Below are positions 3,005 to 63,752 of a stretch of DNA of 64,000 bases, piece by piece. The notes below the pieces were generated by a model. That model did no database searches. It had not been told where the DNA came from and was given only the letters and a program-made list of their open reading frames with translations. Position numbers and translations under genes: made by a program. Location: the NCBI GenBank assembly GCA_900618425.1, contig UZAN01039912.1, positions 29,877 to 93,876 of the forward strand. Direction: 5' to 3'. Every line of letters begins with the position of its first letter. The first letter of the stretch is position 1. The stretch comes from Echinostoma caproni (taxonomy: Eukaryota > Platyhelminthes > Trematoda > Plagiorchiida > Echinostomatidae).

Positions 3005-3220
3005 AAAACGGTTTGATCAACTGTCCAATAATCACGTTGTTAGCATACTTGCTTTTCACCTGGGAGTTACCGGGTTCGACATTTAGCGGGTAAATGGATT
3101 TGCACTGGTAATGAAGCCCAACCAGATCAAAAAGCTGTTCAGTCCGCTTTTTACTCTTTGTACGCGAAGCAAATTCACCGTAAAACCTAACGATATTCCC
3201 CTTTGAGTACTTCACATTTG
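3005..3220 (+). mobile_element. tRNA-derived SINE, degraded, subfamily A
   Basis: The copy starts with AAAACGGTTTGATCAACTG, the same 5' flank as the intact copy at 20.87 kb. It then has a tRNA-like head with B-box GGGTTCGACATT near 3072-3083. The hammerhead region at 3100-3147 reads GCACTG, GTAATGA, CAACCA, GATCAAAA, GCTGTTCAGT. GCACTG preserves the expected 5' strand of stem I. The core is mutated (CTGATGA to GTAATGA, GAAA to AAAA), so it is a dead copy. Confidence 0.55.
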
Positions 3221-5835: not shown

Positions 5836-5976
5836 AACCAACAAAGAGCACAGCTGTTTCGGCCTTGTTTGGGACTCGTCAGCAATACGTACGTTTTGTG
5901 TCCCTGCCAGGACTCGAACCCCGAACCTTCGGTTTGAGACTTCAAATCCATACCCTTGAGCTATGCGATAACGGAA
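5836..5976 (-). mobile_element. tRNA-derived SINE with hammerhead core, subfamily B
   Basis: On the minus strand the tRNA-like head has a good A box (ATAGCTCAAGGGTATGG, around 5949-5967) and B box (GGGGTTCGAGTCCTG, near 5911-5926). A spacer ending in GTATTG leads into CTGACGAGTCCCAAACA and GAAACAGCTGTG. Compared with other copies a CCA triplet is missing just after CAGCTGT, which removes the cleavage site and shortens stem I. The promoter boxes look intact and the ribozyme looks dead. This copy defines subfamily B, whose core has CTGACGA instead of CTGATGA. Confidence 0.7.
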
Positions 5977-8270
5977 ATGATAAACGTTTTATTTAATGGA
6001 GCGATTTTTGGATACATGAGTCACGAACTGTGCACAACGGTACACCAGTGACATGAATGTGGAAAGGAACAATTAAGCTTCTGTTACCCTAACTGCGAAA
6101 TGCATTACAACTGGAAGTGACTTTACATTGTATCGATTTGTCTCATATCAGTATGATCCGCATCTGTAGCCGCTAATCTTAATGCTCTTGAAAATTTCAT
6201 CCTTCGATCAAGCACTTCAGGCCATCTACAACACAACAAGCACAAACTTACTGAAACTTGAAAAGGTTCTAGCCATTCATAACATCAAACCCGATCTATG
6301 CTAATTATATGAATGTTTCGTCACATTAGCTTTACCTTGGTGATTAACCCCATACTCTCTCCCGTTTTTGTGTTACTGTGTCGTATTGTGCGTTGTGACT
6401 GCCGATCATGTTTTCATCTCACGGTAGTTATCTTGCTGACTATATAAAAATCACTTTGAAAGCATTATGGTCCAATCAGGGAGAAGATTCGAAGGGTTCT
6501 AATGAAGTTATATTGATGCAACACTATAAAATGTGAAATGGTTACAATACAAACTGGTAGTGTTACATGTGGGTGCTGTTTGGGTCTTCGTTCTCAGTGT
6601 CTTCTATCACGGTTCCAGGTGTCACGCAACTTGTACAGCCTGTAGAAGGAGAGGGAGAAAGGTGGTTGGTAACGGTAATTCGACACTCAATTACTGGACG
6701 TCGGTCAGTTTCGATTTCACACTTCATATGCACGTGTACAGATGCTGCGAAATGACCACGGACAAATGGTGCAAACCCATGTTTCTGACTTCTTTATTGC
6801 AAATAAATAATATCTCGAATGCATCTTGATTCCTCCGTGTTGATCCTAATCCCTTCGACTTTGACCTGTCTCTGCCTTTTGCGGATGTGATATTAGCACA
6901 CTGGGAAGTGATTTGTAATGATCCAGTATTAGTGTCGATTGAATGAAACAATTTTATTTCCACAGTTGTAAATTATGCCCATTTACTTTCAAACACCACA
7001 TTTATCCCTCTGATCATTAAATAACCGTAGGAACAGCACTGAGTGCATTGAGTGTGCATGAAAAAATATAACACTTTTATTACGAATGGACAAATCGTAT
7101 GACTTTTTCTGCTCTTTGGAAGCACTCGCGATAATGAATTGATCGTTGGTCGAATAAAACAATAATTGGCTGTTAAGGTCAAATCTGAAAAGTGGTCAGT
7201 TAAAGTCATCAATAACAGTTATCTCCCCCACACGGCTTACTAGTAATTATGAGTCAATTATTAATTTCCAACGGGTTGCAATTCAGGCTTCGTGTGTGAT
7301 TGTTTGGATCAGCGCGAGAGCATAATCTATCATACAAATTAACTATTCACGAAAGTGAACCTTCGAGCTCACGCATTATAACTCATGTCACTATCAGACG
7401 CGCTTTACTGCGGCTGTGCACAACAAATCACATCTGTTAGACCTAAAACAATACAACAACACAAAATCAAAACGTTTTCGTTGCTTTAGTTCAAAATTGT
7501 TTTGATTTGATGGAATCAACAATAGAGGTGATTTAGTGAAAAAAGAAACTTTAGGAACCCAAACACAGCAGTGGTGTTCGTTAAAAGCCGGAACCAGATC
7601 CTTCGGAAGGTGAATCGGTCAATACTCCACACCTGTCCCTAGGATATCCCTAATTTGATGTTATTTGATACTCAGTTACCAACTCTGTTTTTCGTGATGA
7701 AAAGAATGCAACTTCTGTGCATTATTTAAGTAATGGTATAAACGTCATATTTTCATAAGGTTCTAAAGAAAAAATTCTAATCCATATCCTTCACCTTAGC
7801 CGAGTTCAGAAGAAGAAAAAGCTAATCATTACAAATGTATCATTTCCAAATGACAAATTCTCCAAAATCCTGTACAGTGTTTCCTAAATGTTCTCTAGCA
7901 ATTTTTCTGTACATGATCCGCTACATTCTTTGAAACTGTGATTAGATTTCTTCGATGAGTACCAATTTTAGTCACAATGGATGTTCGTGTGTGTATTACA
8001 AGGTCTTCCAGAGTTCAGTTTTCTCCGTGATCCATGATTAGTCGGGATGATACATTAAAACCAAGTTATGCGTAGCCAATGGTTTCCGAATGTTTCAACT
8101 TGAATTTATTTTGCTCCCTCAGCGACTGATTGTTTTCGTTTATCGAATCTATCTATCCATTCTTTCACTTCTTTTTATTATTATGATTTTGGATAATGCG
8201 CGTTTCCATCGAGCAAGTTACTTTTTAGGTTGAATTGTATGAAACAACTTGACACAACCTGACTACTTGT
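5977..8270. other. Non-coding stretch, no gene recognised
   Basis: Only short frames without recognisable domains were found, and no repeat family was recognised. Confidence 0.45.
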
Positions 8271-8365
8271 TCCATGAGGGTATTGGAGGGTTTGACTCAA
8301 TTTCACACGGAGAATACGGTCGATGGATTCGAGCTGCCGATGAGACCCAACTAGTCGAAATGGCT
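8271..8365. repeat. Rearranged SINE fragments, subfamily A
   Basis: Bases 8271-8317 match the reverse complement of the 3' tail seen at 20574-20630 (GTTTGACTCAATTTCACACG against GATTTGATTCAATTTCAAAG). Bases 8318-8365 then carry the body in the opposite sense: GATGGATTCG, CCGATGAGACCCAACTA and GTCGAAAT. The two pieces cannot be one collinear element. They look like an insertion-inversion or a template switch. The hammerhead cleavage site is absent. Confidence 0.5.
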
Positions 8366-11300
8366 TTCATTTCACGCTTTATTTGCTCCATACTCGTCGA
8401 ATTATCCATATTAAACAATGTATATCTTTTTATAGAAGAACTGCACTCATCTGCGGCGGTCAAGGCATTTTTGTTTCCAACCATTGTTAAAACTGTTCAT
8501 TGTAGCATGGTACAACTGAACGCTGTTGAATGGATTTCATACTTGGTCGTTTTACACATTGCTAAACGGTTTGCTATTTTTCAGATCAAAACAAAACCAA
8601 TTGTGGAGCAAATCTCTTTTTCCTGTTTCCTAACGTGTAGCGTTTCCGTGGGAAATATCATTCACAAAGCAATCTTTTGCAATGGGGTTCCAAATAATCT
8701 TTGACTAGGAGGTATCTGTGTTTACAGAAGAGTAATTGATCGACCAACCACATAAGTCTAGTACACATTTCGTTGGCAAATCTGAACCGTGGCTTAGTAT
8801 ATGTTCACACTAAGGTGAAGTTCGCTTTCAATCCACGAAAGCAAAATCTAGTGGATAACAACACCCACCGAGCAAGTGTAATCGTAATCGGCTTATTAGT
8901 TTATCGCATCAATTCCGCACACCGACTGTCCATCTATTCACAATATTCATTTCCGGCAGACACAATCCATTTACTGACCTCAAACAACTGAACTTCACTT
9001 TGCTTACCCATCTGCGAGAATGTCTAGCAGCGCTTGTCCGTTTCGCGAATATTTGCCCTCTAGGCTGGCTGTCGTTGTGAAAATCAAACGAATTTCAAGG
9101 TCACACTTTCAGGTCAGCTGAGCTGAACAGCACAAAATCACTTACGGTTCTCAAGCACGACGAACATGGATGATTGGCTTCACGTATTCTTTCGGATCCA
9201 AGTTCTCTCTCTTGATCTAAAAGCTTGTAGTAAAACGTGACAAAAATAACATTTTCTTCATAAGTACCCGGAAAATATCTAACAGAAGAAAAAACGTTAT
9301 AAGTGATAATTTTTAGTACACAGTTTTCTAGCTAACTCAAATTTGGTAAATATGAATCACAAACGATTGTTAGTCATATATATATATATGTATATACATC
9401 TATGTTGCGAGATGTATAAATTTTACGTTTATGTGCGAACAAGACAGGTTACCAAAGAGTTTCTGTCGGTAGATGTGACAAACTGGATGATTCTGTATTT
9501 AGAGCGGTTGGGTGGATGAGATTTATATGTATCAAGGTTGATGTATAAGAGATGAGGCAAACAATTTTTTGTCGGCAAACTGTAAACATGCCTGATTATA
9601 TCTGTAAATGAACTTCGTAAAAACGAATGTTCATTGTAAAGCCACTCATTTGCTCCAGGAAGAAAATCGCGGGGGAACAGCAAGGAAGTACAGGGAGAAC
9701 AAACGGTTGAATAATAAAATCCCCTATTTCCGGCCAATCAAAGTAGATAAGGCAAAATATTTTCATCTGAAAGGAAAAACCTTTTAGCCTACGAGTAAAC
9801 GATACCACAGATGTCGTTTATCGGAACGGATAACAGAACTTGGGAAACACGGTTGATCATTGTGAGGCCACGCCCAAGCAGCTTAAAATCAGCCTTCAGC
9901 AAACGAATGAAAATCACCGGGTAGCGTTGAAGAGTATAGGGATAACAAGAGACCGACTGATGGAAATAGAAGTGACGCAATCTTCTTATCTGAAAGGAGG
10001 TAACTTTCAGCTTGAAAGGAATAGTTTAGTTATCTAAAAAGCAATGAAGGTTATTTTCATGAGTAGAGCTCAGATACTTCAAGCGGATAATCCTGTTCAT
10101 CGATTTCCCCTTAATGTGTACACCGCTTGCAGTAGATCGGGAACGTTAAAAAGTAAAAAAAATGTCGAAGGGAGTTTTCAGGATTAGGATTAAAACCGGA
10201 TAACGTGGAATAAGTGAAAAGGGAGAATATGTTTGTTACGATTGATTGGACGTCGGACTAGGAGTGGAAAAGGTAATCAATATAGTTCATCAAATGATTG
10301 GGTGGTTAGACAATACTTAAGTATACTAGAAAGTTTCAATAACACAGTTTACAGTCTTTTTCCTAATTTCACATAATTGTATCGTTGCGAAAAGTATTCT
10401 CTATCAATTCACGAAGATAAGATAGATAATCAAAAGCTTACAGCCTGTTAGATGAACAAAATGAGGCTCAAAGTCCAAAGCTGAGGAGTAATCCAGAAAA
10501 GCTCAATGCAGATATTAGGCCTTGGCGTTTAAAGATTTGCAAAGAAGGAAATTGGGGAAAAAATAACATACAGTTTGATACATATTTACTGATGTGCAAA
10601 CTGATAAATATCATAAGAGGTGATAAGAGATAATCGTGGGCTCTGAAATACCAATCGTTGCGTTGACTTAAAACCCGTATAAGTAAACGTTACTGACCTG
10701 AGCTGTTTCGCAATTGAAGTCTGTATTGCTCCTTTGGGAATAGGAGTAGTTCCCACCGTGCGCTATTTCTTTTGAATGGTTTGGAGTTTTAGTGAAAGAT
10801 AATTTATGTTTGCCAAAATTTGGGACAATCACTCTGCACCATCTTTAAGAAGTGTGAGGATTAGATGGCTGAAACCTCACGAGAACGCAAGTATGTATAC
10901 ATTCAAACATATGTATTGGGTGGACACGAAGTTGAGGTGTTTTGTGAACTCTGTAGTCCAGGTAACCGCCGAGTGTATCACACGAAAAATGAATGAATGC
11001 AGTATTCAGTTTTGCAATGTTCATTGGAGAAAAAGTAACATTTTACTTCTGCCTGCAACGTTATTTGACCACACCCCACAAAGATTTGCAATGACATGAC
11101 CCCAAAAAAAACAGTTCGCGTAAAACTAATCTAAACATCTTATTTTACTCCCGATCGATGACAGTCAGGCAATCAATGCTTTTTTGTATACTTGAAGTGT
11201 TTCAGGCTTGCTACAACGCTTGAATTTGAGGTAGGTGATTACACTTCCAGCTACTGTCTTCTTACACTTTACTTTATCTTGTTCGAAGAATTCGAAAGCA

Positions 11301-14300: not shown

Positions 14301-14400
14301 TCCGAATTACCCACCAAATAAAATGAAATTAAATGAAACGATGAAATGAAAAAACTATCAATTTCAAGTTAAATAAAAAAGAATTCTTCATTTTTGATTT
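8366..14400. other. Non-coding stretch, no gene recognised
   Basis: About 6 kb with no recognisable exon or transposon domain. A TA dinucleotide run lies near 9376-9398. Several 60-100 residue frames exist, but none has a motif or plausible splice context. Confidence 0.45.
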
Positions 14401-14402
14401 AC

Positions 14403-14600
14403 ACGAGGTCCCGGGTTCAATCCCCGGTGGGGTAGATGGATTCCTTTTTCTGATGAAACCCAACCAGATCAAAACAGCTGTCCAGTGCCTCCCAGCTTTT
14501 CAGTTCACGCTTCATTTGTTATATACACGACGAATTCACCTTCGAAATTAAGTCAAATCCTCGAATACTCGCATGATGAATGCATCCAACATTTACTCAC
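14403..14600 (+). mobile_element. 5'-truncated SINE, subfamily A
   Basis: The copy begins inside the tRNA-like head at ACGAGGTCCCGGGTTCAATC (B box) and continues through GATGGATTCC. The hammerhead region at 14443-14492 reads CTGATGA, AACC, CAACCA, GATC, AAAA, CAGCTGTC, CAGTGCC. The tail CTTTTCAGTTCACGCTTCAT runs to about 14580. CTGATGA and the cleavage site are intact, but the invariant GAAA is AAAA and stem II is damaged. The A box is missing, so the copy should be transcriptionally dead. Confidence 0.7.
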
Positions 14601-20539: not shown

Positions 20540-20805
20540 CCTGATCTGATTTCCCATGAACTGTTAGAAGATTTCATGTGAGTAATGAAGGATTTGATTC
20601 AATTTCAAAGGGGAGTTCGTCGTGTATATGTCAAGTGAAGCATGAACTGAAAAGCTAGAAAGCACTGAACAGCTGTTTCGACCTGGTTGGGTCTCATCAG
20701 CCGTCCTAATCCATCGACCCAACTGGGGATCGAATCTGGGACCGCATGGGGAGAACGCAGGCATGCTACCCACTACGCCACCGGGCAGCTAATCAGACCG
20801 TTTTT
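20540..20805 (-). mobile_element. Full-length tRNA-derived SINE, subfamily A, with hammerhead
   Basis: On the minus strand AAACGGTCTGATTA leads into a tRNA-like head starting GCCCGGTGGCGTAGTGGGTA (A box), with B box AGATTCGATCCCC. The spacer is GATGGATTAGGACGG. A hammerhead at 20661-20706 and a tail of about 90 bases follow, the tail ending near AATCAAATCCTTCATTACTC. Length is about 240 bases. Head, ribozyme and tail are collinear and well preserved, so this and the plus copy at 20.87 kb are the reference copies for the family. No long poly(A) tail is visible. The mobilising partner LINE cannot be named from this copy. Confidence 0.8.
20661..20706 (-). ncRNA. Hammerhead ribozyme, minimal type I, probably weak
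   Basis: The minus strand reads CTGATGA (20694-20700), stem II GACC/GGTC closed by CAACCA, GAAA (20676-20679), CAGCTG as a tiny stem III, then TT and CAGTGC. All invariant core bases are present. The cleavage triplet is GUU rather than the preferred GUC. The 5' strand of stem I (GACGG) pairs poorly with CAGTGC. Activity is therefore doubtful as a monomer; with palindromic CAGCTG, a dimeric form is conceivable. Confidence 0.65.
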
Positions 20806-20864
20806 CATTTTCCATTTAGACTATATAGCGTAAGCTCGCAAAGATGAGTTGTAATATCGTGTTT

Positions 20865-21090
20865 ATGGAAAATAAAAAACAGTTTGATCAGCTGCCCGAT
20901 GGCTGAGTGGGTAGTATGCTTGCGTTCTGCTCATGAGGTCCCGGGTTTGATCCTCAGTCGGGCGGATGGATTCGCCTTGCTGATGAGACCCAAACAGGTC
21001 GAAACAGCTATCCAGTGCTTCCTAGCCTTTCAGTTCACGCTTCATTTGCCATATACAAGACGGATTCTCCCTTTTCTAGGAGATTCGTCT
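20865..21090 (+). mobile_element. Full-length tRNA-derived SINE, subfamily A, with hammerhead
   Basis: After AAAACAGTTTGATCA the tRNA-like head spans 20894-20963 with a 6 bp acceptor stem (GCCCGA/TCGGGC). The A box is TGGCTGAGTGGGTAG at 20900-20914 and the B box GGGTTTGATCC at 20943-20953, the two internal RNA polymerase III promoter elements. GGATGGATTCGCCTTG follows, then the hammerhead at 20975-21020 and a tail with CTTTCAGTTCACGCTTCATT. It lies head to head with the minus copy, about 60 bases apart. Confidence 0.85.
20975..21020 (+). ncRNA. Hammerhead ribozyme core in SINE, cleavage triplet altered
   Basis: CTGATGA (20980-20986), stem II GACC/GGTC with loop CAAACA, and GAAA (21001-21004) are all intact. 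Stem III is CAGCTA instead of CAGCTG, so the C15.2-G16.2 pair is lost and the triplet becomes AUC. Stem I retains CAGTGC on the 3' side, but the 5' side is GCCTTG. The fold is recognisable and the activity is probably reduced. Confidence 0.65.
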
Positions 21091-24000: not shown

Positions 24001-25000
24001 GTGATCCATTGTTTCGCTACTTATAGCACTCTCAGAGTCCTTCGTTTTTCAATAGTTTACAGTTCGGTTGCGATTCAGTCGATACTTTTAATTAAATTTG
24101 TGTATATCGATATAAGTAGGTGTGTGAATTCTGCCACAGTCTTGTGTGAGCTAATTAAATGACAATCAGCCGCTTGGGTTAGAAGGAACCAATTTTGTTT
24201 TCATTAAGAATCTTTTTTCAATAATTGATTCTATTTGATGAATACTGTCACGATTAGCACGCTATCTTTGGTAGGAATTGTGTGTTTTACATCCCTCTTG
24301 ATGATGTTTTGTTCACTCTGCTTTATTGCCTTTTGTAAACCACAACCCACGGCGAAATCACCTGCCATTGTTTCAAAATGTGACAGTGTCACTGACTAGT
24401 GTAGCAGAAACGAAATCAGGCAGTTAGGTCAGAATTGGTCACAGCTTGATTTTCATGAAATCACATAAGGAATTGATCTCAGCAGTACTGAATAGCGCGA
24501 ATGAAATCACACTGGACAAACATGTGCTGTAGATGGTGCTGTCCGATAATAAAGGTAGACAATGTGCAAAAGCTGTCAAACGAAAGATCAACAAATTTAA
24601 TTACCTAAACGATTGAATAGTAGCTGATTCATTAAAAACAGAACTCTGAAGTTTTTCTACAAATCCCCTGTGATAATTTTAGTGAAGGGATGTGCGATCC
24701 GCTTGAAAAACAATAACTGGAGTCGAGATATTCTGAATGAATGAGTTTGAATAAACCGAAGGTAACAAGGATTGAACTAACGGTGATTTACTTCTGCTCG
24801 ATCGGGGCGGGTCTAGCTAGAGGTTCAGGGTAGACTATGCTGGCCTTTCTCCCCATACAAACCAACCAAGCTGCTTAAAAATAACTATCAGATTTGGAGT
24901 GTATCCGATTGAAGCTGTTGCTGCGATGAGTGAGTGCAATTCTTAGCGCTTGAAAAGACAGATTAAACATTATTGAGTTCTTAAAGTGAAAAAGCCTGAT
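21091..25000. other. Non-coding stretch, no gene recognised
   Basis: No recognisable domain or repeat was seen over about 3.9 kb. Frames of 60-90 residues are present without motifs. Confidence 0.45.
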
Positions 25001-25165
25001 CCACTCCGCGGTGACCAAGTGAGTGGTATTCTAAAATTTGGTAGGTGAGATCCTGGGTTCGGTCATCAATCAGGTGGATACATTGACATGTCTTATGAAA
25101 TCGATTTTGGTCAAAATGTGCAGTGCAATGTAACCCAGCTTTTTAGTCTGCATCCCTGTTTCTCT
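24985..25165 (+). mobile_element. Degraded SINE, subfamily A
   Basis: AAAAAGCCTGATCCACTCC matches the family 5' flank. GGTGACCAAGTGAGTGGTA (A box) and GAGATCCTGGGTTCGGTC (B-box region) follow, then GGTGGATACATTG and a ribozyme remnant (CTTATGAAATC, GGTCAAAATG, GCAGTGC). The order of parts supports the call. The core is too mutated to fold as a hammerhead. Confidence 0.5.
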
Positions 25166-27599: not shown

Positions 27600-29020
27600 A
27601 CTATGATTAGAATGAGCAACTAACAAAAAGTATCTCTTTTAGATACATATTGCACATTCACTTGTAATTGCGCTAATTAGTTGCCATTTATTGAACCGTA
27701 AAATTTGTGTCAGAAAGGAGCCAGCATGAGTCATCAGAAGGCTAGGCTTTTGTTATGATTTTCTGAGACAGCAATTTGTCTTCACACGAACGAAATCCGT
27801 GTAAACAATTGCATTTTTTTGGATAGTTTGACCTTTCCAGTGCTAGGTTACCAGTGTGGCTTCAGTTAGTGAATCTATCAGCGGCCCTCCACCCTCGACT
27901 TCTGATGCCATGAAATAGAAAAATGTAACATGGTAAATTGCATGCAAAGGTGTATTTCTTAACAAACCGAAGTGTTTTGAAATGAACACAATATAAATTG
28001 TACGTAGATGAATGACTTCTATGGCCTCCTTCATCCGCATTTATGCTATTTAAGTCATTTTGTTAAACGAAATCATTAGGATTGCGATGCAAATTCTTAT
28101 TATCGGTATTTCACAACGTCGGAGTGTGTGACAATCAAAGTGAAACTGAATGGGAGTGTATCCTCTTTTCCTCTAAACACAACTGACAGTTGTCCAATCA
28201 CTTTCATACCTTTCACAATTCAAGTTCTACAAATATCACTTCAAGATGCCCTTGTATAGATCAAACCTCCCAGGTGGCAATCGATCTTGAAATTCTTCAT
28301 GATCTCGGGGTTTTTCACGTGGAACAAATAAAATTATGTTGGTTTTCCCAGAAGGAAAAATATGCATCATTTGCAATAAGGGTGAGTCAGTGATGACAAG
28401 AAAACAAAATTATGCAATCAGAGTCTACGTTTCGAATTTGGTAGGCTAGCCACATCAATGAACGATACTCGGCCTTCTGGAGGTAGAACCCATAGTAATT
28501 TGCACAAAACCAACAATAATTAAAAAAACAGTTATAATGCAAACTTAAGAATTTAGAAACCTTTTTCACTAAACAATGATCTGAGAACGTTGATAGAACT
28601 TCCGTAACCTCAGGGTACTATTCAGTCAGCCGATCTAGTTTGCCTGTCATCCGAATGAATGCACCTGGACAAAAAACCCTTTCTGACGAGTTCCTTTCAT
28701 TTGGTGTGTGCAGGGTGTGATGAAATCGGGTTCGAAAGGTTATTTCCATCTAAACGGTGAGTAAACCGATTTTAGCGAATAAGCTTGTTTTCCATCGCTC
28801 ATCAACTGCCCAACTTATCACATTTTATGGCACATCAACTTTTGTGGAATAAAAGTGACTTAAAACAAACAGGCACATATATAGCACGTGAAGTTGATCA
28901 ATTATGGTGAATGAACGAGTACAAGAATACACGGATCGATTAATCCGTGCTTCCTACACAATCATCTAAACACATCCACAATCCCGAATCTTTAACATTC
29001 ATACAAAAATAATATGATTC
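27600..29020. other. Non-coding stretch, no gene recognised
   Basis: Nothing recognisable was seen. CTGACGAGTTCC at 28683 is not followed by a GAAA core and is not a ribozyme. Confidence 0.4.
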
Positions 29021-29029
29021 TCTTTCCAT

Positions 29030-30115
29030 GGGGTTGAAGTTCAAGATTACACCAAGAAAGGTCGAAAACCTGAAAATATGTCAGGTGGATCCGAGCGAAA
29101 CTTGTGGACGTTTGTCATTCCCACCTTAAGGCACCGATTCGACAACACTACTTCCTCACTCCAAAACATTGCAAGGCATTGAAAGAACTCAAAAGTACGA
29201 GAAAACTGAAATTTCTGAAACTAGACAAAGGATCCAGAACGGTAATTATGCCAAAAGACAGTTATTTTACCAAAAGAACAAAATTCTCTCGGATGCCAGA
29301 AAATTGCAGATCGACAACACACCGGACAACAACCATCTCACTAAAGGCCTTATTCCACGAAAGCTGCATATTCTGTTACTTCATGGTCACAGTTCCGAGG
29401 CCCAAAACAAACAACTGACATCAAATGAACATAGCTTACGAACGTTGGCTTATGAGAGCCCTATTTCATTGGGTGAGAAACATTTGTTCTCCAGGTAAAC
29501 TAAAGGATGAAGAGAACTTTCTAAGGAGAATACGAAACAATGGTTACCCAGAGATTCTATGGATACTCACAGTAGATCAGTTCCAAAAGGTAACCCAACC
29601 CTAAACTTCAGTAAGAAGGCCATCAACATCAAGCTTATTCTCAAAGGTGACCATATTTACAATGATGTGCGCCAGAAGTTGAGGTTGGCTCTAGACCGTG
29701 CATTCCCAGCTGCTCAACTCAAACTCATTGCCTCCACTGATGGAATCGATTTGGACAAACGTAAACACGTTTGGCAAAGCGGTTCCGTCTCACACACCGT
29801 AAACCCGTTCACCTGCAGTTGCGGCAACGCATACATAGGTAGAACAAACCGTCAGCTCTCACAACGGATGGCCGAACATATTCCAAATTGATTGGTGAAA
29901 TCGATAACGCAACCAATAATTGATGACCAAGTGAAATCCAGGGTTATCTGTTGCAAAACATGTCCTGACAACAAGACTCACAGTTGACCCCAAACTACTA
30001 TTATGTAAAGGCAACGCTAAACTTTTGGCAATTAGTGAAGCACTGCTTATTCGATTACATCACCCGACCTTGTGCGCACCAAAGTTTTTGATACACTCAA
30101 TCCACTTACCATGAA
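29030..30115 (+). mobile_element. Penelope-like element with reverse-transcriptase core deleted
   Basis: The plus strand begins with MGLKFKITPRKVENLKI (29033 onward), a Penelope N-terminal signature. It continues with FLTPKHCKALKELKSTRKLK and LDKGSRTVIM (29150-29260), then shifts frame into KILSDARKLQIDN. After about 29480 the sequence passes almost directly to the linker LKDEENFLRRIRNNGYPE. The endonuclease part follows: SYTFTCSCG-like VNPFTCSCGNAYIGRTNRQ at about 29800-29860 (GIY-YIG with its upstream CxCG), QRMAEHIPN, and ALLIRLHHPTLCAPK near 30045-30085. The palm with the YADD motif is missing, an internal deletion of several hundred codons. Stops and frameshifts make it a pseudogene, but the GIY-YIG portion (29559-29891) is open. 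Confidence 0.8.
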
Positions 30116-30119
30116 GTTG

Positions 30120-33100
30120 ACCTTCTACTTCTATATTTAGTAGTCTTTGTATGCCTCTACACGTTCGTTTACCATAATTGACCAACACTATGTGATATAT
30201 ATGCGTCTGTTTGTTTAAGGTCAGTGATTGAGAAGATCGAACGACATGTTAGGATCTTGCAGCATTTTTCTTATTTCTGTATGAATGAAACGGATAAAGG
30301 GGGCTCAGTACTTCGAATAAAAAAGAGCGTAACACATTAGAGTCCATAAGGAATGTTTCTCTAATATATCTCACTTCCACAAATAGGATATGGTCGATAT
30401 GGCCGTTATCCAGTTTTTGCCAAAATCGCATCACTCCTGTGATCTGGGGCGTGACGGGGGTCATGGTTGATTGCGTGATTTTGCAAATTATTTAGGTGTT
30501 CACAGGGTGATACAAGCACTTAAGACGATAGAGCGAATTGTGACTGGCAGACTTAAAGGGCAGGCTAAATTATAAGTACTCTCTACATTAAGAAGATTTG
30601 ATAACAGTTGTTTGAATTCGTGTTGCCTTTACACTTCATAAGTCATTTTGAATTATCCTTTTTGGTTCATCTCTGTAACTGGTATGACCTTTGTGGAGAT
30701 TTTATTTGTAGCTATTTGTATACAACCTTGTCTAAGGCCGCACCTCTTCCCTCAATCACGATCGATCGACCCACCCATCAGCCTAGCTTTACAACCAGAA
30801 CCAAAGTTTTACATAGCATCCCGCATAGCGCGAGTTATATCATACCCGGCCCAAATCCTATCGAACAAGACAATGATTGAGCCGGGCTATCAAGAACCCA
30901 TGAGAATAATTTGCCTTGTTCGGGTTTTTTTGATGAGACACTTTTCCTGTGTATTTTTTTCTCAGTACAGCAGTGAAAATATATTTTTACTAAATGTTTG
31001 CAAAATTCAATTTATTTCATCTATCTGGTCATCGGATTCCGGATGTTAAAGTCAACCGACCGCCCTCTCTCCACAGCCAAACACGGCAGCTTGTCATTTT
31101 TCATTATGTTCTATCTGTCAAACCTCGTTACTCTGCAAGCGTTCATATTCGTGTGAGTTACTTCATACCGGAATTGTGCCTACCAAGGGTGAAATTTTGT
31201 GTAAAATTCGTGCGTTCATGCACGTCACAATCGAATGACTTCTGGTACGAGCATCGGTCTTTTCTAAAATCAATCGTCATTCTTATACAGATGATGGAGA
31301 ATACTTGGGTTTTCGGCTTTTTGTGAGACATCTCACGCCTATTTCTAAATTCCCCAGTACCTATCTTATAAGAGCCATGAATGACTGTTTATCTCCCACT
31401 GGCATTGGTCCGAGTACGCACTGACTCTTTCCATGACCCATTCTGTGGAATCATTTGCTTTTACGTTGAGCATATCACTAAACTAATGCCAAACAGAAGC
31501 AGTGTGAGCAGCAAAGTAATGTGATAAGCGAACAAAAGACAAATAAAACCAAGGAAGGCGAAGAAACCTTCAACTCTCCGTGAAAGTCAGTGGGATGGTA
31601 TTTTGACTATGATATAGCAATCATATTATACGCTTCAGTGCTTATATCTCCGTAGTCAGCACCATGATTCTATGTTGATGGAGGTGAAGATACTTACCAA
31701 ACATAGGCAGTACTCGGACAATTCTCGATCACGTAAGTAATTGGCGGTAGACTGTTGTAAAATAACCATTTATAAGCACCACTGGTGTATGTGTGAATGA
31801 ATCAAGAACGATTAATGGGTTGTGTGGTGTGGCCTAGAACTTAAAGAAAGCATGAAGCGGTCATGCAATCATCATTCATGTTGTGTGGCTTTTCTAATTC
31901 CCACGTGATGAAGAGAAGCTTGTTCCCATAGAATTCAGATGATTCGAAACCCTCAGATCACCCGATGAGCAAACTTATCCTCACCACCATATTTCCATTC
32001 ATTTTCACCAGTCTAACAACACGTTATTCAGGGGTGGGAAAAAGTATATAATTGTTGAATTACCCAAATCGAATGCCGAGTGTTCCATTCAAAACATTAT
32101 CCTACTGAGTTTCACAGTGAACTTATAGTTATTTTGGCATTCCTAAGTATTTTGAATTTTTTATGCATGTATCAGGTTATTTCTGTTACACAAACTGTTA
32201 CTGTCCTCTTGATGGAGTACATTGTGCTTTAGCGAAAATGGTTCAACAAAGGTTTTTTCTGCAAACAACCAGTACGTGGTAACAATGGGTGTTGAACACC
32301 CTTCGTGTACTCTTAGATAATAGGAAATGCTCTAGCTTATGGCTCTTTGAAGCCTATCAGTGATCACTTGTGTATATGTGAATGATTGGGAATTGATGTG
32401 TCATACGTAATGTGTCCTTTACTCGAAACCCTTCTAGGCATTCGAATGAACACATTAAGCAAATTTTTAACGCTAGTGATTCTTAACAAGGATAAAACCG
32501 TTGTATCGTGCTTCTAAGACTACCAAGTGGTATACGTGACATCGGAACACTGTTCAGTCAATCACATACAGTATTCAGAAGTAATTTATTCAAATTGCAA
32601 TTACAGCCATTGCTGCATTTCCATTTCTGTAACCCGTTACTCAATCTATACCTAAAATCTACATGTTTTTTCATTGCGATTCTGCCTATATAACAGAATA
32701 CCCATAATTAAGTAGGCACGAGTCAATCAAACTGCAAATGTCACCCTGGTGGTTGATAAGTTATTTCCCAGCCGAGCATCATACGCAGCTAGTAATCGAA
32801 CAAACAAAGTGACGGTAGTGCAATGTTTTTGATCAAACCCCACCAATTTCGCCAAATTATATTACTTCTTCGTATCACTGACATCCCATTGACTAATTGC
32901 TTTCCCGTACTGGAAGCTGAGGGTGTAACTATCTACTGTAGTTAGTAGATAGATGAAGTCCCGAAAACGAGCATATTTACTGTGTTTTCATAACAATGGC
33001 AATTACTTTGATGCCTTAATTATGGCAGTGTATGCGGTCAGTACCTAACCTAGGATTTGAGCATAAATGAATAAGAAGAAAAAAATAGTCACCGGTACTA

Positions 33101-33790
33101 ATTAACCGTACATTATAGATAAATAGATAGATTTATTAGATAGATGGATAGATAGATGAATAGATAGATAAAGATAAATCCATGAATCTCCCAAATAGTG
33201 CAACTGCATGCAATCGCCCAAAGCCTTTTTCCCAACAGCCACTCTATTCGTTCCTACCTGTCAAGTAACTGAATGATTCTGATGGGCACGCGATTGACGA
33301 AATAATTCAACAGAACCAGATTTGTCTAACTCCTAATGCACTTCGGTGGATGTCAGTGGGTAGACAGTAAGTTGACACCCAATCCGTTTCAATTTATGAA
33401 AAAAATTGAAATATTTCATCCTTCTAGATTTGATGGATGTCGGAGTTCGGCGAGGCATGTTTCAAAAATTGTGGAAGGAGACAATCTCATTTGTTCAGAT
33501 ACATTGTTTGCTTCGACGGTCAAACCACCATCACCAGTTAACTGACTCAATTGTCCCTTCCCTACCCCAATAAAACGGACCTTGAGGAGACTTGGATCAG
33601 ACGAAATAAATGACACGAGACCTGTGGGTTTCGATTGTACATACATCACAAGAGTCTTTCATCACGGATAGAAACCATCGACATGTTTATTCATAACACG
33701 CCGGACTAGTTAAGCTACTTCACAGACAAACTAGAAATTAGATTTCTTCTATTAAACGATGAAAACCTATTTTTTATTTACAGTACAAAT
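30120..33790. other. Non-coding stretch, no gene recognised
   Basis: No domain was recognised. It holds a GATA-type microsatellite near 33118-33172. Overlapping frames at 30608-31326 are leucine/serine-rich without motif. Confidence 0.4.
33118..33172. repeat. GATA/TAGA microsatellite
   Basis: Imperfect tandem ATAGATAG units read directly. Confidence 0.8.
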
Positions 33791-33794
33791 CTTC

Positions 33795-33955
33795 GTTGAA
33801 GACTGGCAAAGAGCACTGGATAGCTGTTTTGTCCTTGGTGATATTTGTTAGAAGTGCACACCGTAGATATTCTGGTTAGGAGTGGAACCCCTTATATGTG
33901 AGCCATACGTTTGCGGGTTAATATCCTGAGCGAGCGATTTTGTATCAATTTATAA
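33795..33955 (-). mobile_element. Degraded SINE, subfamily B
   Basis: On the minus strand TCGCTCGCTCAGGATATTAA is an A-box region and GGGGTTCCACTCC a B-box remnant. A spacer with GTGCACTTCTAACAA (stem I and first core element, mutated), then GGACAAAACAGCTATC and CAGTGCTC follow. Stem I could still pair (GAGCAC-type ends), but CTGACGA and GAAA are both broken. Confidence 0.5.
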
Positions 33956-37859: not shown

Positions 37860-37990
37860 TCCTACGTCGAAATTTTGAAAGTTCAGTAGCCTCCGTGAAA
37901 ATCGAACCCACGCATGGACGCCGCCTACGCTTTTGTACAGCACAGGCTCTACCAGCTGGGCTACGAGGCCACACCGATAGCACTGATCTT
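37860..37990 (-). repeat. tRNA-derived SINE head, third family
   Basis: The minus strand gives GCCTCGTAGCCCAGCTGGTA (acceptor plus a near-perfect A box TAGCCCAGCTGG), then an anticodon-arm-sized region and GCGTGGGTTCGATTTTCAC (B box), closing with GGAGGC. GCCTC and GAGGC can pair as an acceptor stem. A downstream ACTGAACTTTC is shared with the neighbouring hairpin units. It has insertions relative to a functional tRNA and no credible anticodon stem, so it is tRNA-derived rather than a tRNA gene. Confidence 0.6.
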
Positions 37991-38023: not shown

Positions 38024-38795
38024 GCAGATTGTGAAAAAGTCCAGTAGCCTCGTGGGTTCGAATCTTACCGAGGCTATTGAACTTTTCACAATCTCGACAT
38101 ACAAACTNNNNNNNNNNNNNNNNNNNNNNNNNNNNNNNNNNNNNNNNNNNNNNNNNNNNNNNNNNNNNNNNNNNNNNNNNNNNNNNNNNNNNNNNNNNNN
38201 NNNNNNNNNNNNNNNNNNNNNNNNNNNNNNNNNNNNNNNNNNNNNNNNNNNNNNNNNNNNNNNNNNNNNNNNNNNNNNNNNNNNNNNNNNNNNNNNNNNN
38301 NNNNNNNNNNNNNNNNNNNNNNNNNNNNNNNNNNNNNNNNNNNNNNNNNNNNNNNNNNNNNNNNNNNNNNNNNNNNNNNNNNNNNNNNNNNNNNNNNNNN
38401 NNNNNNNNNNNNNNNNNNNNNNNNNNNNNNNNNNNNNNNNNNNNNNNNNNNNNNNNNNNNNNNNNNNNATTCGGTGGACTCTGGTGAATTCTAAGAAAAA
38501 CCTGTCGGCTTACTTGCTACAGGCCACACCGATAGCACTGATCTTTTCATATTCGAATTACTCATCCAACTTACAGAGGCATATGGCATCCACCAATTAG
38601 CATGTAAGGTGACTTCTCCGACAGGTTTTTCTTAGAATTCACCAGAGTCCACCGAATGAGTTTCTAAGGCAAGGTTAAATGTCCAAATTGTTGTTTGGCA
38701 GATTTAAAGTTTGTATGTCGAGATTGTGAAAAGTTCAATAGCCTCGGAAAGATTCGAACCCACGAGGTTACTGGACATTTTCACAATCTCGACAA
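38024..38795. repeat. Nested palindromic repeat spanning a gap
   Basis: Outer inverted copies are 38024-38107 and 38707-38792 (about 84 bases, few mismatches). Each is itself a hairpin: 38027-38093 and 38722-38788 start GATTGTGAAAA and end with its complement, and the loop holds GGGTTCGAATC, a B-box word. Inside, 38469-38508 and 38618-38657 are a perfect 40-base inverted repeat. In addition 37967-38026 and 38522-38581 are about 60-base direct copies (CACACCGATAGCACTGATC...). The 361-base gap sits between the left arms. Confidence 0.85.
38108..38468. other. Assembly gap (361 n)
   Basis: Run of n between the left outer and left inner arms of the palindrome. On the right side the corresponding spacing is only 49 bases, so the gap length is probably an estimate or the arms are asymmetric. 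Confidence 0.99.
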
Positions 38796-38829
38796 ACAAA
38801 CTTCAAATCTGCCACACAACAATATTTCT

Positions 38830-50794: not shown

Positions 50795-51018
50795 GATGAA
50801 CTGCCGCTTTCTTGCTATAGAGAAGGGCTGCATCGGAATCCAATCGCTTGAATGTGATAGACATCTTTACGATGGCCGACAAGGAGTACTGGACAACTGT
50901 TTCTTCCTCTTCGGGCCTCGATAGAAGCTCGTACGTCTTATCCCTGTCAGAAATCGAACCACGAACTGAATAGGCTAATCTAAACATTCCCCTCTAACTT
51001 GGTGGAGCCATCTACACA
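50795..51018 (-). mobile_element. tRNA-derived SINE, subfamily B, mutated ribozyme
   Basis: The minus strand starts near TGGCTCCACCAAGTTAGAGG (A box) and has GTGGTTCGATTTCTGACAGG (B box), then AAGACGTACGAGC. The ribozyme region at 50884-50930 reads CTATCGAGGCCCGAAGAGG, AAGAAACAGTTGTC, CAGTACTC. GAAAC, the GUC site and a possible stem I (GAGC with GCTC-like ends) persist, but CTGACGA is CTATCGA. It is head to head with the plus copy that begins about 15 bases away. Confidence 0.6.
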
Positions 51019-51029
51019 AAGTGTTAGCC

Positions 51030-51190
51030 GTCGGTCGTGTAGCTCAGGAGTAAGCGTGTCAACTCTCAAACATCAGATTGATTGGTCGAGTCCTGACGGG
51101 GATACAAAAAGTACACAATGCTGACGAGTTCCAAACTGGACGAAACAGCTGTCCAGTGATCTTCGTCGGTCGTCACAAAGATCTCTATCG
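51030..51190 (+). mobile_element. tRNA-derived SINE, subfamily B, with intact hammerhead core
   Basis: GTCGTGTAGCTCAGGAGTAAG is a strong A-box region (51035-51056). GATTGGTCGAGTCCTGACGG (51081-51100) holds the B box GGTCGAGTCC. The spacer GGATACAAAAAGTACACAAT leads into the best ribozyme of the window (51113-51162), followed by ATCTTCGTCGGTCGTC. Head and ribozyme are in the same order and at the same spacing as in the minus copies at 5.9 and 50.9 kb. This is the most likely of all copies to have been transcribed by RNA polymerase III and to self-process. Confidence 0.8.
51113..51162 (+). ncRNA. Hammerhead ribozyme, minimal type I, core complete
   Basis: CTGACGA at 51121-51127, stem II GTTC/GGAC with an intervening CAAACT loop, and GAAA at 51142-51145 are present. 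The minimal stem III CAGCTG is at 51146-51151, the cleavage triplet GTC ends at 51153, and stem I 3' strand CAGTGATC follows. Stem I pairs CAATG (51116-51120) with CAGTG (51154-51158) at four of five positions. All invariant nucleotides of the family are present. With only a two- or three-pair stem III, established minimal hammerheads cleave poorly as monomers and better as dimers. Confidence 0.75.
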
Positions 51191-51194
51191 TATG

Positions 51195-53240
51195 TAACTG
51201 GTGGGGAATTAACGATCGACCGATGAATGAAACCCACACTCAAGATCATCAACGTCTGGAGCCTGTAAAAAACCGAAAGAATTAGCTCAGTCTAACTCGA
51301 TCATTCCGCGATCCACAGACTCATGCAACCCAATGAGAATTTCCTTTTCTTCTCTTTTATGGTCACCATATGTTTACCTACCTGTCTCCCGCGCTGTACA
51401 CAAAATCGGCTTCCTCTTCCGAGTCTGACGTTTGTTCACCTCCATTCACCTTTTCTCGCTTTACAAAGCCCTACACTTGATAACTGCAGTGATATGGGAG
51501 GGAGCCTCATCCACATCTCTTGCTCTTCTTGATCGGGTTCAACGTAAAGCCATTCATCCCATCAAAGCCTCTCTCTAGTATGAAACTTGCACACACTAGA
51601 CCATCATCGGACAGTCGTTTCTTCATCTTCATTGTATCGATACTACTTTGGATTTTGCTGTAAAGAACTTTCCGCTTTGGCCCCTCTCCCGATTTTTCTC
51701 CTTGGTAGATACCGAACAGATGCGGCTAGCCATCCATTTCAAGTGGTTATCCCCAGATGTCACATTTCTGACCTTCAATCATTTTTCCCAAGAACAGCAC
51801 AATTGCGGAACACTCCCCCTTCCAGTTTTCCCTCCAACGTACATTTGTTTTTAAACGCAGAATCAGCAAGCTGGTTGTAGCGTGAATGTTCGCCTTGCCT
51901 TCCCAAGTACATATCCTTGGATTATGGAATTTACCCCTTACGTGTAGTCAAAAAGCCACCATTTGAAAACTCATCATCCTCACAGATATCGATGCCAAGG
52001 AACATTACTTTTACCAAAGTATTGTGGAGACCATAATGAGAAGCAGCAAGTCACCGTGTTTGCAACTTACTTGATACCCGCTCATCTGTGAACGGATCAA
52101 TAAACGAACTTGTAGGTATAGAGAAAGCGATCTTCACATTCCATTATTGTATGCCCAGCAGCCGAAGCCGCGTTCCAGCAGATGATGTTTGTATTAAAAA
52201 AGGACGATCTCATCCTTTTTCACTGAGCGGTGGATATAATATTGTCCCATTAATGGGAAGACATTGGTGGAATTTTGGCCGAACAAGAGCATGGATATTT
52301 CAGAGTTCGTGTATGTTTGACTGCTGAGTAGAAATACGCTTCGTTTAAAGGGTTGTGATTTTTTCAGATATATTTATGTGCAGAATGTCACTGAAGAATT
52401 AGGTTGTCTGGTTGAACCCTCATACATCATGCAGGGAAATGAGGCAAAATGTAAATAAACTTCGGTACTTGGACAACTACAGCTCACATTTACCGAAAGG
52501 TGTACAGGAATCGCATTTCGTAGTCAACTGTAGTGCCGAGAAGCTATGACGATTTGAGTGTTTCACCCTGAATAGATGTTGTGGGAAAAGGAAAGTTGCA
52601 ATTTGGTACCATCGCCTTGTTTGCGTTTGGTGGGAAATAAGGAACATTTGCTCCGAGAAAAATTATGACGTGGCTAAGATCGAACATTAGAGTTCGTGTT
52701 CTGGACCCATAAATTGTATTGAATAAGCACAAATCGGGCATGGTCTCGGAGATTCTCTCAAGATGTGCTATGTTTAATGTTTATCCATAAAGGTAAGTAA
52801 AACTTGATAACAAGAGTAATTTGTATCCGTTGCGTTAAATTATCAACCTGGAAGTTACGAGATCTGAGCGACGTATGGTGCGAAAAAATGGGGAATGGTT
52901 AATTCAATCGGACAGTGGCGTCTTGGTTTAATTGGTTCACTTCGCCCGTCCCATCCTCTCACTTTTTTATAGGACGCTCAAAACTCTTTATGCATTTCCC
53001 GACAAAGTGACGTTTATGGAAGTTGAAAGCAATGCGCCCGCGCAACCGAACTGATGACACAAAAGTGGTACTTCAAACAAGTCTTGTAATACACAAAGTG
53101 GTCTCAAAGTTTCCAGGACCATATGGTGCCAAACGTGCTCACCGCGAGGTCAGTTATTGTGCTGAAAAATAAGTTTTCAGCGGGCGCATTTGTTGTCAAT
53201 GTTACTGAGTTGCACAAAGCAATATTCCCTTAAAAGAGAT
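51195..53240. other. Non-coding stretch, no gene recognised
   Basis: No domain was recognised. Confidence 0.4.
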
Positions 53241-59560: not shown

Positions 59561-59895
59561 CTTTCCAGCAGAAACTAATAAACCCAACTATTGATCATCG
59601 GCTGGTCTGGAACGCCCTGGTACTTCGCAGATTGCACTTGAATATGCAAAAGTCCCAGCAAGGACAGTCCAAGGTTTAAGTGATTTTATGTTTGATCACA
59701 TTCGGGTGATGAATAAAAGTAGGTAACATGCCCCTAAGCTGTTCAACGCACACCAAAACCGGAATTGAACTAAACTATGGCCAATATGAGTTTGTCTCAC
59801 TATGAACTACAAAACGAGCACGCTTTGCACACGTAGCTTATGATGTAGAAGGTAATGATGAACGAACCGAGGACAAAACAAAATAGGTTACTCAC

Positions 59896-60098
59896 TTGTA
59901 CACCAAACAGAACGAGTGCAACTAGTCCAATCCAACTGTGTAGGCTGTAGAGGTTAGGAATGCGTCGGCTGTCATGGAACTCAAACACTGCTTTGACTGC
60001 GACCACGGCAAACAGGAATGCCAGGATATGCAGGACAGCGTGTAATATTTTGATGGGCATTTTGCGATAGTTTCGAAATACCCGATAGACAAGGATGG
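59896..60098 (-). CDS. Cytochrome b561, internal exon with core helices
   Basis: Cytochrome b561 proteins move electrons across membranes from ascorbate on one side to an acceptor such as monodehydroascorbate or ferric ion on the other, through two haems. This exon (acceptor AAATTTCAG, donor CAA|GTGAGT) encodes ILVYRVFRNYRK, then KILHAVLHILAFLFAVVAVK (helix with a haem histidine pair region). FHDSRRIPNLYSLHSWIGLV then carries the family's SLHSW motif and another haem histidine. The VYRVFR basic motif is the one linked to ascorbate binding. It joins in frame to the next exon (GVQ|WVCG). The N-terminal exon(s), with the first helix and first haem histidine, are not in view. Confidence 0.92.
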
Positions 60099-60479
60099 CT
60101 GAAATTTGACAAAATTAGAAAATGACTCATAAGCAATGACTAAATCCGATGAACCTAAACATTCTTGGAACATTAAACGAAATGGTGATGCATGATGACG
60201 ACGGAGTATACAAGAAGGATAAAAATGAGTCAGCTATCTGTCTGGTTGATAGGAAGCTGGCGTACACGTTAGTCACTTGTTTCTTACAACTTGATGACAC
60301 GGAGGTCACCTGCGGGAGGGCCGATTTCTCCACTAATGAAATTTAAACATGAAATGGGAATTTCCGCCCCCGGGTTGTTGGAACAAAATAAACTAATCCC
60401 ACATCAGAATGGAAACATCAGCGGAAGTTAGTACCATGTAAAACGGTAAACGATCGCTGAAAACCGAGAAATACGGTAT

Positions 60480-62087: not shown

Positions 62088-63752
62088 TTATCAGTGCCCG
62101 CTGTGACGCATCCCCCCGGGGAGTTGGGGCTGTTTTATTACATAGAATGCACGACTCCATCGAAAGACCTATCACTTTTGCCTCGAGAAGTTTATTACCT
62201 GCAGAAAAAAATTACGCTCAGCTAGATCGGGAAGCCTTGGCTGCTATCTTCAGCGTAAAAAGATTTCATCAATATCTATGGGGCAGAGTTCTTTAGTTAC
62301 AGACTGTCCACAAGCCACTGCTCAGTTTGATGGGGGAATTTAAAGACATTAACCAAATGGCATCACCCCGAATGCAAACGTGGGCCAGTTTGTCAGGTTG
62401 TAGTACAAACTGCCAGACTGTTGGAACAAAAAATAAAGTGGCGGATGCTATGAGTCGCTTGTCTCTCCCGGATGCACCAGAATACGTATCAAAACCAATG
62501 GAATTAGTGAATCTGGTGCAACACGTAAACAAGGGGCCTGTCATCTTTTCGTCGAGAGACCGAACGGGATATCACAATGACTAGAATTACACTTTTTCTA
62601 AGTCACGGATGGCCGCGAACCACCGAAGGCCAAGTCGCGGGTTTTACCCAACGAAAGGATGAACTAAGTCTTGAAGACGGATGTATAGTATGGGGTTCAC
62701 GCAGTTGTTCCACCTAGCTTACGACCCCAGGTACTCGCAAACGTATATACAGCGCATCCAAGCATTTGCGGGATGAAAACACTAGCCAGAGATTATGTTT
62801 GGTGGCCTAAGATGGATGAAGACATTGACCAACTAGTTCGGACATGTGAGGTATGTCAACGGTTTCAAAGGAATGCATCGCCAGTTCCTCTGAGTCCTTG
62901 GAGTTGGCCTGAAAAACCCTGGCAGCGGGTTCATGTAGATTATTTTGGTCCGCTCGACAACTGCATGTTCTTACTGATGACTGATGCACATTCAAAGTGG
63001 ATCGAAATTTATCCTGTGTCCCACGCCAGTTCGGGGACTACAGTAAGTTGCTTGCGTACATCATTCAGCACATTCAGTATTCCACAGACTCTGGTGACCG
63101 ATAACGGTACTCCGTTTACCAGGGAAGAGTTTAAACAATTAGTCCAGAGAAATGGCATAGATCATGTCAGAACTGCCCCTTACGATACAGCCTCCAATGG
63201 ACTGGCGGAACGAACCGTCCAAACCGTCAAACAAGGTTTACTGAAACAACAATCAGGAACGATAAGGACCTAATTGGCGAGGTTCTTATTGTCATATCGT
63301 ACAACCCAAACAGAGAGCACAAGAAAAAGTCGGGCGGAACTAATGTTTGGACGTAAACTACGAACGAGACTGAGTCTCTTTTCCGAGAACCAAGAGCTGA
63401 TATCATGGAACAACAAGGAAAAATGAAAGATAGATATGACGATTCAGCCAAACACAGGAAATTCGAAGAAGACGACCTAGTGTGCACGAAATTACCACAT
63501 GAGCCATCTTGGGAGCCGGGTGTAGTGAGGTGCACCAACGGCCTGCAAAGTGGGATCTAGCTTTCGGATGGAAGAATAGTGACACGCCGTAACGACCAAG
63601 ATCGTGCTAGACATGTACACGAGGATAAACCAGACGAAACGACACCTATCATTGAGAATAATTCCACATCCCAGCATGAGGACTCAGTACCTGAACAGAG
63701 TCTCCGCCGATCCAGCAAAAATCCAAGCCAGCGGACAGATCAGGCAGGATAA
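62083..63752 (+). mobile_element. Ty3/gypsy RNase H-integrase segment, pseudogene
   Basis: RNase H starts at CDASPRGVGAVLLHRM (62090 onward). RPITFASRSLLPAEKNYAQL and DREALAAIFSVKRFHQYLWG (62165-62285) follow, then a frameshift near 62308 and EFKDINQMASPRMQTWA. The linker ADAMSRLSLPD is next, then ELSLEDGCIVWGSR and VVPPSLRPQVL (frameshift near 62705). Integrase runs from about 62715. Its zinc finger has lost its first histidine (VYTAHPS) but keeps CEVC. D56, D110 and E146, counted from ATG 62773, form D-D-35-E (VDYFGP, LVTDNGT, NGLAERT). A stop at 63271 and one or more frameshifts interrupt the tail (ARFLLSYRTTQTES, AELMFGRKLRTRL, then RRSSKNPSQR). Protease, reverse transcriptase and gag are missing. 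Confidence 0.9.

Follow-up and report, generated by a model that had tools for sequence, protein, structure and literature searches.

Echinostoma caproni, an echinostome fluke, carries at least two families of small non-autonomous retroelements, here called F1 and F2, in which a type I hammerhead ribozyme lies behind a head with RNA polymerase III (pol III) promoter boxes. They are of the Sm-alpha/retrozyme type and are probably mobilised by a Penelope-like element (PLE). Copies of both families lie in the 64,000-nucleotide stretch of DNA that was analysed (the window). A host exon at 59803-60114 (minus strand) of the window encodes cytochrome b561; its best match is from Echinostoma caproni (99% identity across 93% of the 74 residues used as query), and the next are from Fasciolopsis and Fasciola gigantica (93%).

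An earlier note on this DNA had placed a complete hammerhead core inside a tRNA-headed SINE near 51 kb. All parts of the core are found on the plus strand: CTGACGA at 51121-51127, GAAA at 51142-51145, CAGCTG at 51146-51151 and GTC at 51151-51153, from which cleavage is predicted after 51153, the position given in the note. The covariance-model search proposed there returns a match of the Rfam type I model (RF00163) to 51119-51155 with 36.8 bits, above the gathering score of 34 (E = 1.3e-5 in the window), and with the stems counted the ribozyme spans 51115-51159. The catalytic core (CUGANGA, GAAA, NUH) is unbroken, stem II (51128-51131 with 51138-51141) has four base pairs including one G-U, and stem I (ACAATG/CAGTGA) is paired at four of six positions. 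This copy is probably a poor ribozyme because a rival hairpin is computed at -11.3 kcal/mol and the hammerhead pairs at +2.4 kcal/mol (these and all folding energies below omit tertiary contacts). Relative to the F2 majority, an A-to-U change in its loop II lengthens the rival hairpin.

The surrounding element (51031-51209, plus strand) scores 187.4 bits in nhmmer against an F2 profile made from this copy and the one at 5797-5972, and is an old, decayed copy of F2. Its tRNA-like head has an A-box-like TAGCTCAGGAG at 51040-51050, where the F2 majority reads TAGCTCAGGGG, and a decayed B box GGTCGAGTCC at 51084-51093, which is the F2 majority GGTTCGAGTCC minus one T. The copy is absent from the 13 A/B box pairs that a scan of the window yields with one mismatch allowed per box. 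A second F2 arm stands head to head with it at 50845-50966 on the minus strand (nhmmer 63.3 bits); in the unit alignment its hammerhead core is scored as broken.

Two other hammerheads in the window outscore the 51 kb copy, and both belong to F1. They form a head-to-head pair with inverted arms of 220 nt that are 81% identical: one arm lies at 20589-20802 on the minus strand (nhmmer 229.5 bits; hammerhead 20662-20706, Rfam 42.3 bits) and its partner at 20878-21090 on the plus strand (nhmmer 228.2 bits; hammerhead 20974-21018, Rfam 41.5 bits). Up to an E-value of 1 there are eight Rfam matches in the window, six of them to Hammerhead_1 and three of these six above the cut-off. The three hammerheads below it are those of a decayed F1 arm at 2554-2747 on the minus strand (hammerhead 2603-2647; nhmmer 180.7 bits, Rfam 24.1), which faces an F1 arm at 3007-3148 on the plus strand head to head (nhmmer 69.8 bits), of an F1 copy at 14382-14562 on the plus strand (decayed hammerhead 14444-14488; nhmmer 178.9 bits, Rfam 22.6) and of an F2 copy at 5797-5972 on the minus strand (hammerhead 5841-5888; nhmmer 184.1 bits, Rfam 22.1), which retains exact A and B boxes and is damaged on the 3' side of the ribozyme. 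Weaker nhmmer matches are an F2 copy at 33765-33929 (minus strand, 36.7 bits), an old F1 copy at 24992-25147 (plus strand, 40.5 bits) and an F1 fragment at 8317-8421 (plus strand, 46.0 bits) with an inverted tail piece at 8270-8305 found by blastn. F1 and F2 are separated by profiles of the window copies, and matches across the two centre on the ribozyme. Rfam matches to the plant miRNA families MIR6224, MIR530 and MIR9471 were below the cut-off, stem from long inverted arms and were set aside.

The genome was searched as an assembly of 426.5 Mb in 12,689 contigs. With RF00163 there were 66,429 first-look candidates, with a young F1 unit 5,229 and with the F2 piece of the 51 kb copy 649, all three being counts of candidates and not of confirmed copies. 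All of the 74 RF00163 candidates that were scored pass the cut-off (top score 60.6 bits) and none was found in 14 control genomes, so that hammerheads are more abundant here than chance would give. Forty candidates were scored for each of the other two queries, with 41 matches listed for the F2 piece. The insertions of both families are dispersed over dozens of contigs. F1 is recent: ten loci match the query copy L063 at 99-100% identity over 337-401 bp. Exact pattern scans of bacterial and archaeal genomes and viral contigs gave zero matches.

In an alignment of units, 112 of 117 rows fit one gapless frame (36 F1 and 76 F2; the other five were dropped). The majority ribozyme has a stem I of six base pairs (GCACUG/CAGUGC) and a stem II of four, while AGCU closes a stem III of two pairs. 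The ribozyme had been described as minimal, which is apt for stem III, two pairs within the palindromic CAGCUG, but not for the family stem I of 6 bp. Because stem III is this short and closed by AGCU, CAGCUG could also pair with a second molecule. Stem II reads GACC/GGUC in F1 and GUCC/GGAC in F2; its second pair is A-U in 35 of 36 F1 units and U-A in 73 of 76 F2 units, both sides of the stem having changed. The core is unbroken in 20 of 36 F1 and 50 of 76 F2 units, figures that are inflated because 30 loci (L029-L058) were picked by hammerhead score. The recurrence of core and stem I across genome-wide copies, named in advance as a second check on the 51 kb ribozyme, is thus observed. The hammerhead pairs of two young copies, L042 (F2) and L063 (F1), are computed at -9.2 kcal/mol and their best folds, which keep stem II and are not hammerheads, at -15.1 and -15.2 kcal/mol; for two F1 copies of the window the values are +1.2 and -0.2 against best folds of -11.1 and -20.1 kcal/mol.

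Promoter boxes precede the ribozyme. A window scan for an exact A box and a B box with at most one mismatch gives three pairs (20900 plus, 20780 minus and 5963 minus), each directly 5' of a hammerhead copy and each with the boxes 32 nt apart; ten Markov-shuffled windows together gave one pair. The upstream boxes reported for the 51 kb copy are therefore real as the head of the family, but in that copy itself they have decayed. ARAGORN calls a tRNA-Gln(CTG) at the F1 heads of three out of four loci (L063, L072 and two units of L066; not L060), placing it at q185-259 in coordinates of the F1 query. In six F2 loci it made no tRNA call, and the Rfam tRNA model had no match in five loci (two F1, three F2) or in two further stretches.

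Sm-alpha is among the early known animal hammerheads, and the plan found here, a type I hammerhead within a repeat with pol III boxes, is the same in this non-schistosome fluke. Compared by description, Sm-alpha and Sj-alpha share with F1 and F2 a type I hammerhead near the Rfam consensus. The head of Sm-alpha is reported as derived from tRNA-Gln-TTG (PMC2770079), that of F1 being called tRNA-Gln-CTG, and unit lengths are close to the 335 bp given for W36.2, a representative of Sm-alpha (PMC8490949). Candidate numbers are about 38,500 by blastn in S. mansoni (PMC2770079) and the 66,429 first-look candidates in E. caproni. The echinostome elements differ in belonging to another fluke family, in comprising two families that combine the same ribozyme cassette with different heads and, again relative to Sm-alpha as described, in having CAGCUG in stem III and an insertion anatomy of their own.

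The metazoan non-LTR retrozymes offer a second comparison. As described in PMC7229834 they are small non-coding units with a type I hammerhead that occur in tandem, and tandem repeats of 150-450 bp with such a hammerhead are found here too, with periods of 363 nt in F1 (L066) and about 321 nt in F2 (L043). F1 insertions range from part of a unit to more than two units (C7286). It is thus a serious possibility, somewhat short of even, that hammerhead cleavage and a tRNA ligase produce RNA circles which are reverse-transcribed over more than one round; unit size, ribozyme type, tandems and insertions exceeding one unit all fit, and RNA circles have been shown for other animals (PMC7229834). In our data, however, circles are indistinguishable from linear multimers. 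Animal retrozymes are also said to lack promoters, or to seem to lack them (PMC7761336), whereas F1 and F2 have pol III boxes, a difference that holds against the retrozymes of PMC7229834 as well; head-to-head insertions and 3' ends at two sites were not found among the features described in the available text of the latter. Circular templates rival only the form of the template and not the PLE enzyme, and both can hold.

The 3' ends of F1 are concentrated at two sites. Among 60 outer ends (from 20 pairs and 20 single or tandem insertions), 45 fall at two sites about 30 nt apart: 16 at site 1 (q370-375, after TTTGAAA, 65-70 nt 3' of the cut at q305) and 29 at site 2 (q399-401, after CATGAAA, 94-96 nt 3' of the cut), where the class means q401 or beyond because the query stops at q401. 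The other 15 lie elsewhere. The query itself runs from q1 to q401 and may truncate some alignments at these positions, and a different query moves the alignment ends by several bases (C7075, C5077); the fetched loci L063, L066 and L072 end at site 2 with duplications. None of the 60 ends lies at the cleavage site q305, and a linear hammerhead-cut RNA as template was rejected on this count. For F2, one end class could be placed: 26 of 51 loci (50 separate places, as L017 and L045 coincide) end 39-51 nt 3' of the cut, with three at 29-35 nt and four at 60-80 nt, and the remaining 18 extend as far as the 97-nt model does. A mapping of F2 ends on L043 was discarded as this query is itself partly inverted.

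Head-to-head pairing recurs in both families. The 41 F1 places comprise 20 head-to-head, five tandem, 15 single and one complex arrangement and no tail-to-tail one, a share of pairs that is overstated, since ranking the places by their similarity to the query favours pairs. Of 16 F2 neighbours less than 400 bp apart among the 51 loci, 15 are head to head, one is direct and none is tail to tail. The window, which was not chosen for pairs, holds three head-to-head pairs at 20.8, 2.9 and 51.0 kb. Two 'far' F1 pairs (L064/L065 and L068/L069), the middle of which is a gap of N, were left unused. Both outer ends lie at the sites in 11 of 21 F1 head-to-head places, and in ten of these 11 the two arms use different sites (permutation p of 0.018 for a pattern noticed after the fact); C8781 (L074), whose right arm extends beyond site 2, was left out of this test. 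Arms use different sites also in all of five further places (C5917, C7233, C943, C3135 and C6979), a small test read by hand with part of the site coordinates estimated.

Target-site duplications of at least 8 bp flank nine of 26 F1 insertions, compared with 8 of 1492 random point pairs. They are seen in three of nine head-to-head insertions (L086, 12 bp; L094, 9 bp; L093, 8 bp) and six of 17 single or tandem ones (L070 and L081, 13 bp; L072, 11 bp; L066, 10 bp; L063, 9 bp; L095, 8 bp, overlapping the element's own end); 15 of the 26 have no duplication longer than 5 bp. As single duplications flank whole insertions, tandem units (as in L066) and inverted arms can arrive in one event. In F2 the identity within a pair exceeds the best outside match of both arms in one of 14 pairs (L046; L057 could not be aligned), which neither supports nor excludes pairs made in one event.

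These data bear on the proposal that the elements are ordinary tRNA SINEs, transcribed by pol III from the tRNA head and copied from the 3' end by a LINE, with the hammerhead as a passenger. Boxes 32 nt apart 5' of the ribozyme and an F1 head called tRNA-Gln, as reported for Sm-alpha (PMC2770079), are what such elements would show, and a few copies begin near the head: L081, with its 13-bp duplication, starts at q180, five bases 5' of the tRNA call, and three arms start at q191-193. F1 copies nevertheless rarely start at the tRNA. Twenty single or tandem insertions start at q1-120, 267, 316 or 319, all of them outside q185-259, and neither two 3' end sites nor tandem units and head-to-head arms within one duplication agree with this mode of copying, which we consider unlikely. 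Of the tRNA-headed SINE in the earlier note, the pol III boxes and the hammerhead stand, but a simple SINE is not supported.

It is less likely still that F1 and F2 are satellite-like DNA spread and inverted by recombination with the ribozyme as a relic: tandem copies exist, the 51 kb copy is decayed and the W-elements of S. mansoni are described as satellite-like, some with hammerheads (PMC8490949), yet the insertions are dispersed on dozens of contigs, carry target-site duplications and include near-identical young copies with unbroken cores. Least credible is a DNA element of foldback or MITE-like type that moves with both arms as a unit, suggested by head-to-head arms inside a single duplication (three of nine) and dropped because the junction points vary from copy to copy (in 20 of 20), with one arm alone in 15 of 41 places and two outer ends that often differ.

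Mobilisation by a PLE agrees with an element resident in the window itself. At 28856-30318 (plus strand; right end approximate, at site 2 as defined below; locus L109) lies a broken element with a GIY-YIG-like ORF at 29511-29888, which we take to be Penelope-like from this motif and from its behaviour; Pfam assigned no family to three short pieces of its ORF. It has inverted arms at 28856-28931 and 30148-30223 (76 nt, 79%) and in this way is arranged head to head, like the hammerhead elements. The ORF piece has 5484 first-look candidates and 150 scored matches in the genome, and an open frame of 529 amino acids is predicted in C524. The ends were mapped in a sample of 22 (18 segments from the 150 matches and L109-L112, with L112 as reference). 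Fourteen lie at two sites 27 nt apart, eight at site 1 after GATGAAA or variants and six at site 2, about 27 nt later, after CTTCAAA or variants, and seven end elsewhere. The two-site habit of F1 is thus seen in the PLE as well. The L112 copy is head to head with 281-bp arms of 97% identity that end at different sites, as read from the letters; among the pairs in L109, L111 and L112 it is the only one with both ends at the sites. It has a possible 8-bp duplication, which comes from a wide search without a control. F1 and F2 have no clear shared sequence with the PLE, the best F1 match being 12-13 bases. An F2 match in L111 (71 columns, 75%) lies outside the PLE part of that locus. In L131 an apparent piece of the F2 ribozyme lies about 20 bases beyond the 3' end of a PLE copy.

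The explanation that best fits the whole, and which we think likely, is that F1 and F2 are retroelements whose RNA is copied into the target by the PLE enzyme. The architecture, the two end sites of F1, the inverted pairs, the duplications and the two-site ends of the PLE are observed, whereas we infer transcription, cleavage and the PLE as the enzyme. A monomer consists, in this order, of a tRNA-like pol III promoter, a type I hammerhead and a tail. Pol III or read-through transcription would give an RNA of one to several units, which the hammerhead may trim or help to fold. A Penelope-like reverse transcriptase would bind this RNA and cut both strands of the target DNA, and cDNA would begin on each strand, inside the RNA, at either of the two neighbouring sites 3' of the hammerhead. 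Retention of one cDNA would leave a single or tandem copy, and a head-to-head inverted pair would arise when both survive and are joined. Either product could have one flanking target-site duplication.

Several of these steps have a counterpart in the PLE of the anole, PAc, as reported in PMC11167929. In vitro, its protein cleaves both strands of the DNA and extends them, initiating within the RNA at two adjacent positions. The authors link these to an optional PLE tail of 30-40 bp, and a start at a site non-homologous to the cut DNA is called unique to PLEs. PAc and F1 thus share the order of hammerhead and reverse-transcription start, two adjacent starts, both strands and tandems. For F1, the two 3' sites, which hold 16 and 29 of 60 ends and are separated by about 30 nt, correspond to the 30-40 bp tail of PAc (PMC11167929). 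Because no hammerhead was found in five resident PLE loci, which may lack the 5' part, the spacing of F1 was compared with the anole element: F1 has 65-96 nt from cut to start, and PAc, with the cut at 26 bp and the start at 111-118 bp into the ORF, has 85-92 nt (PMC11167929). F1 and F2 differ from PAc in having a tRNA-like promoter instead of an ORF. For the anole element hammerhead cutting was unnecessary for insertion in vitro, and the available text of PMC11167929 reports no difference in start site between strands.

A further reading takes the mobilisation by a PLE one step on, and we judge it to be evenly balanced: hammerhead SINEs and retrozymes would mimic Penelope RNA, with hammerhead and two-site start region ordered and spaced as in PLEs, and in this way hijack the PLE enzyme. 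Each site would serve one of the two target strands, and the PLE tail would then be a side effect of priming in pairs. Should the paired-site pattern hold, it would account for inverted PLE copies as well as for the tail. Mobilisation of such elements by PLEs has been proposed (PMC7761336, PMC11722881), and the open-licence literature yielded no paper showing it for hammerhead SINEs or retrozymes. According to PMC7761336, no conserved motif in animal retrozymes reveals the autonomous element that mobilises them. A young family with pol III boxes and PLE-like scars beside a resident PLE makes the questions of promoter and mobiliser testable in one genome, and suggests that Sm-alpha be read as a parasite of PLEs.

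Some other features of the window may be recorded. Head-to-head pairs such as 20607-21073, where Rfam matches to plant miRNA precursors fall below the cut-off, would give long hairpins if read through and are a possible source of small RNAs. The region 38026-38823 contains near-perfect inverted repeats (82 nt, 96%; 46 nt, 93%; 40 nt, 100%) around a gap of N at 38108-38468, and close to this cluster ARAGORN calls a tRNA-Cys at 37886-37970 (minus strand). At 62689-63270 (plus strand) lies the integrase region of an LTR-type retrotransposon with H2C2 and rve domains, the best named match of which is from Dicrocoelium dendriticum (51%).
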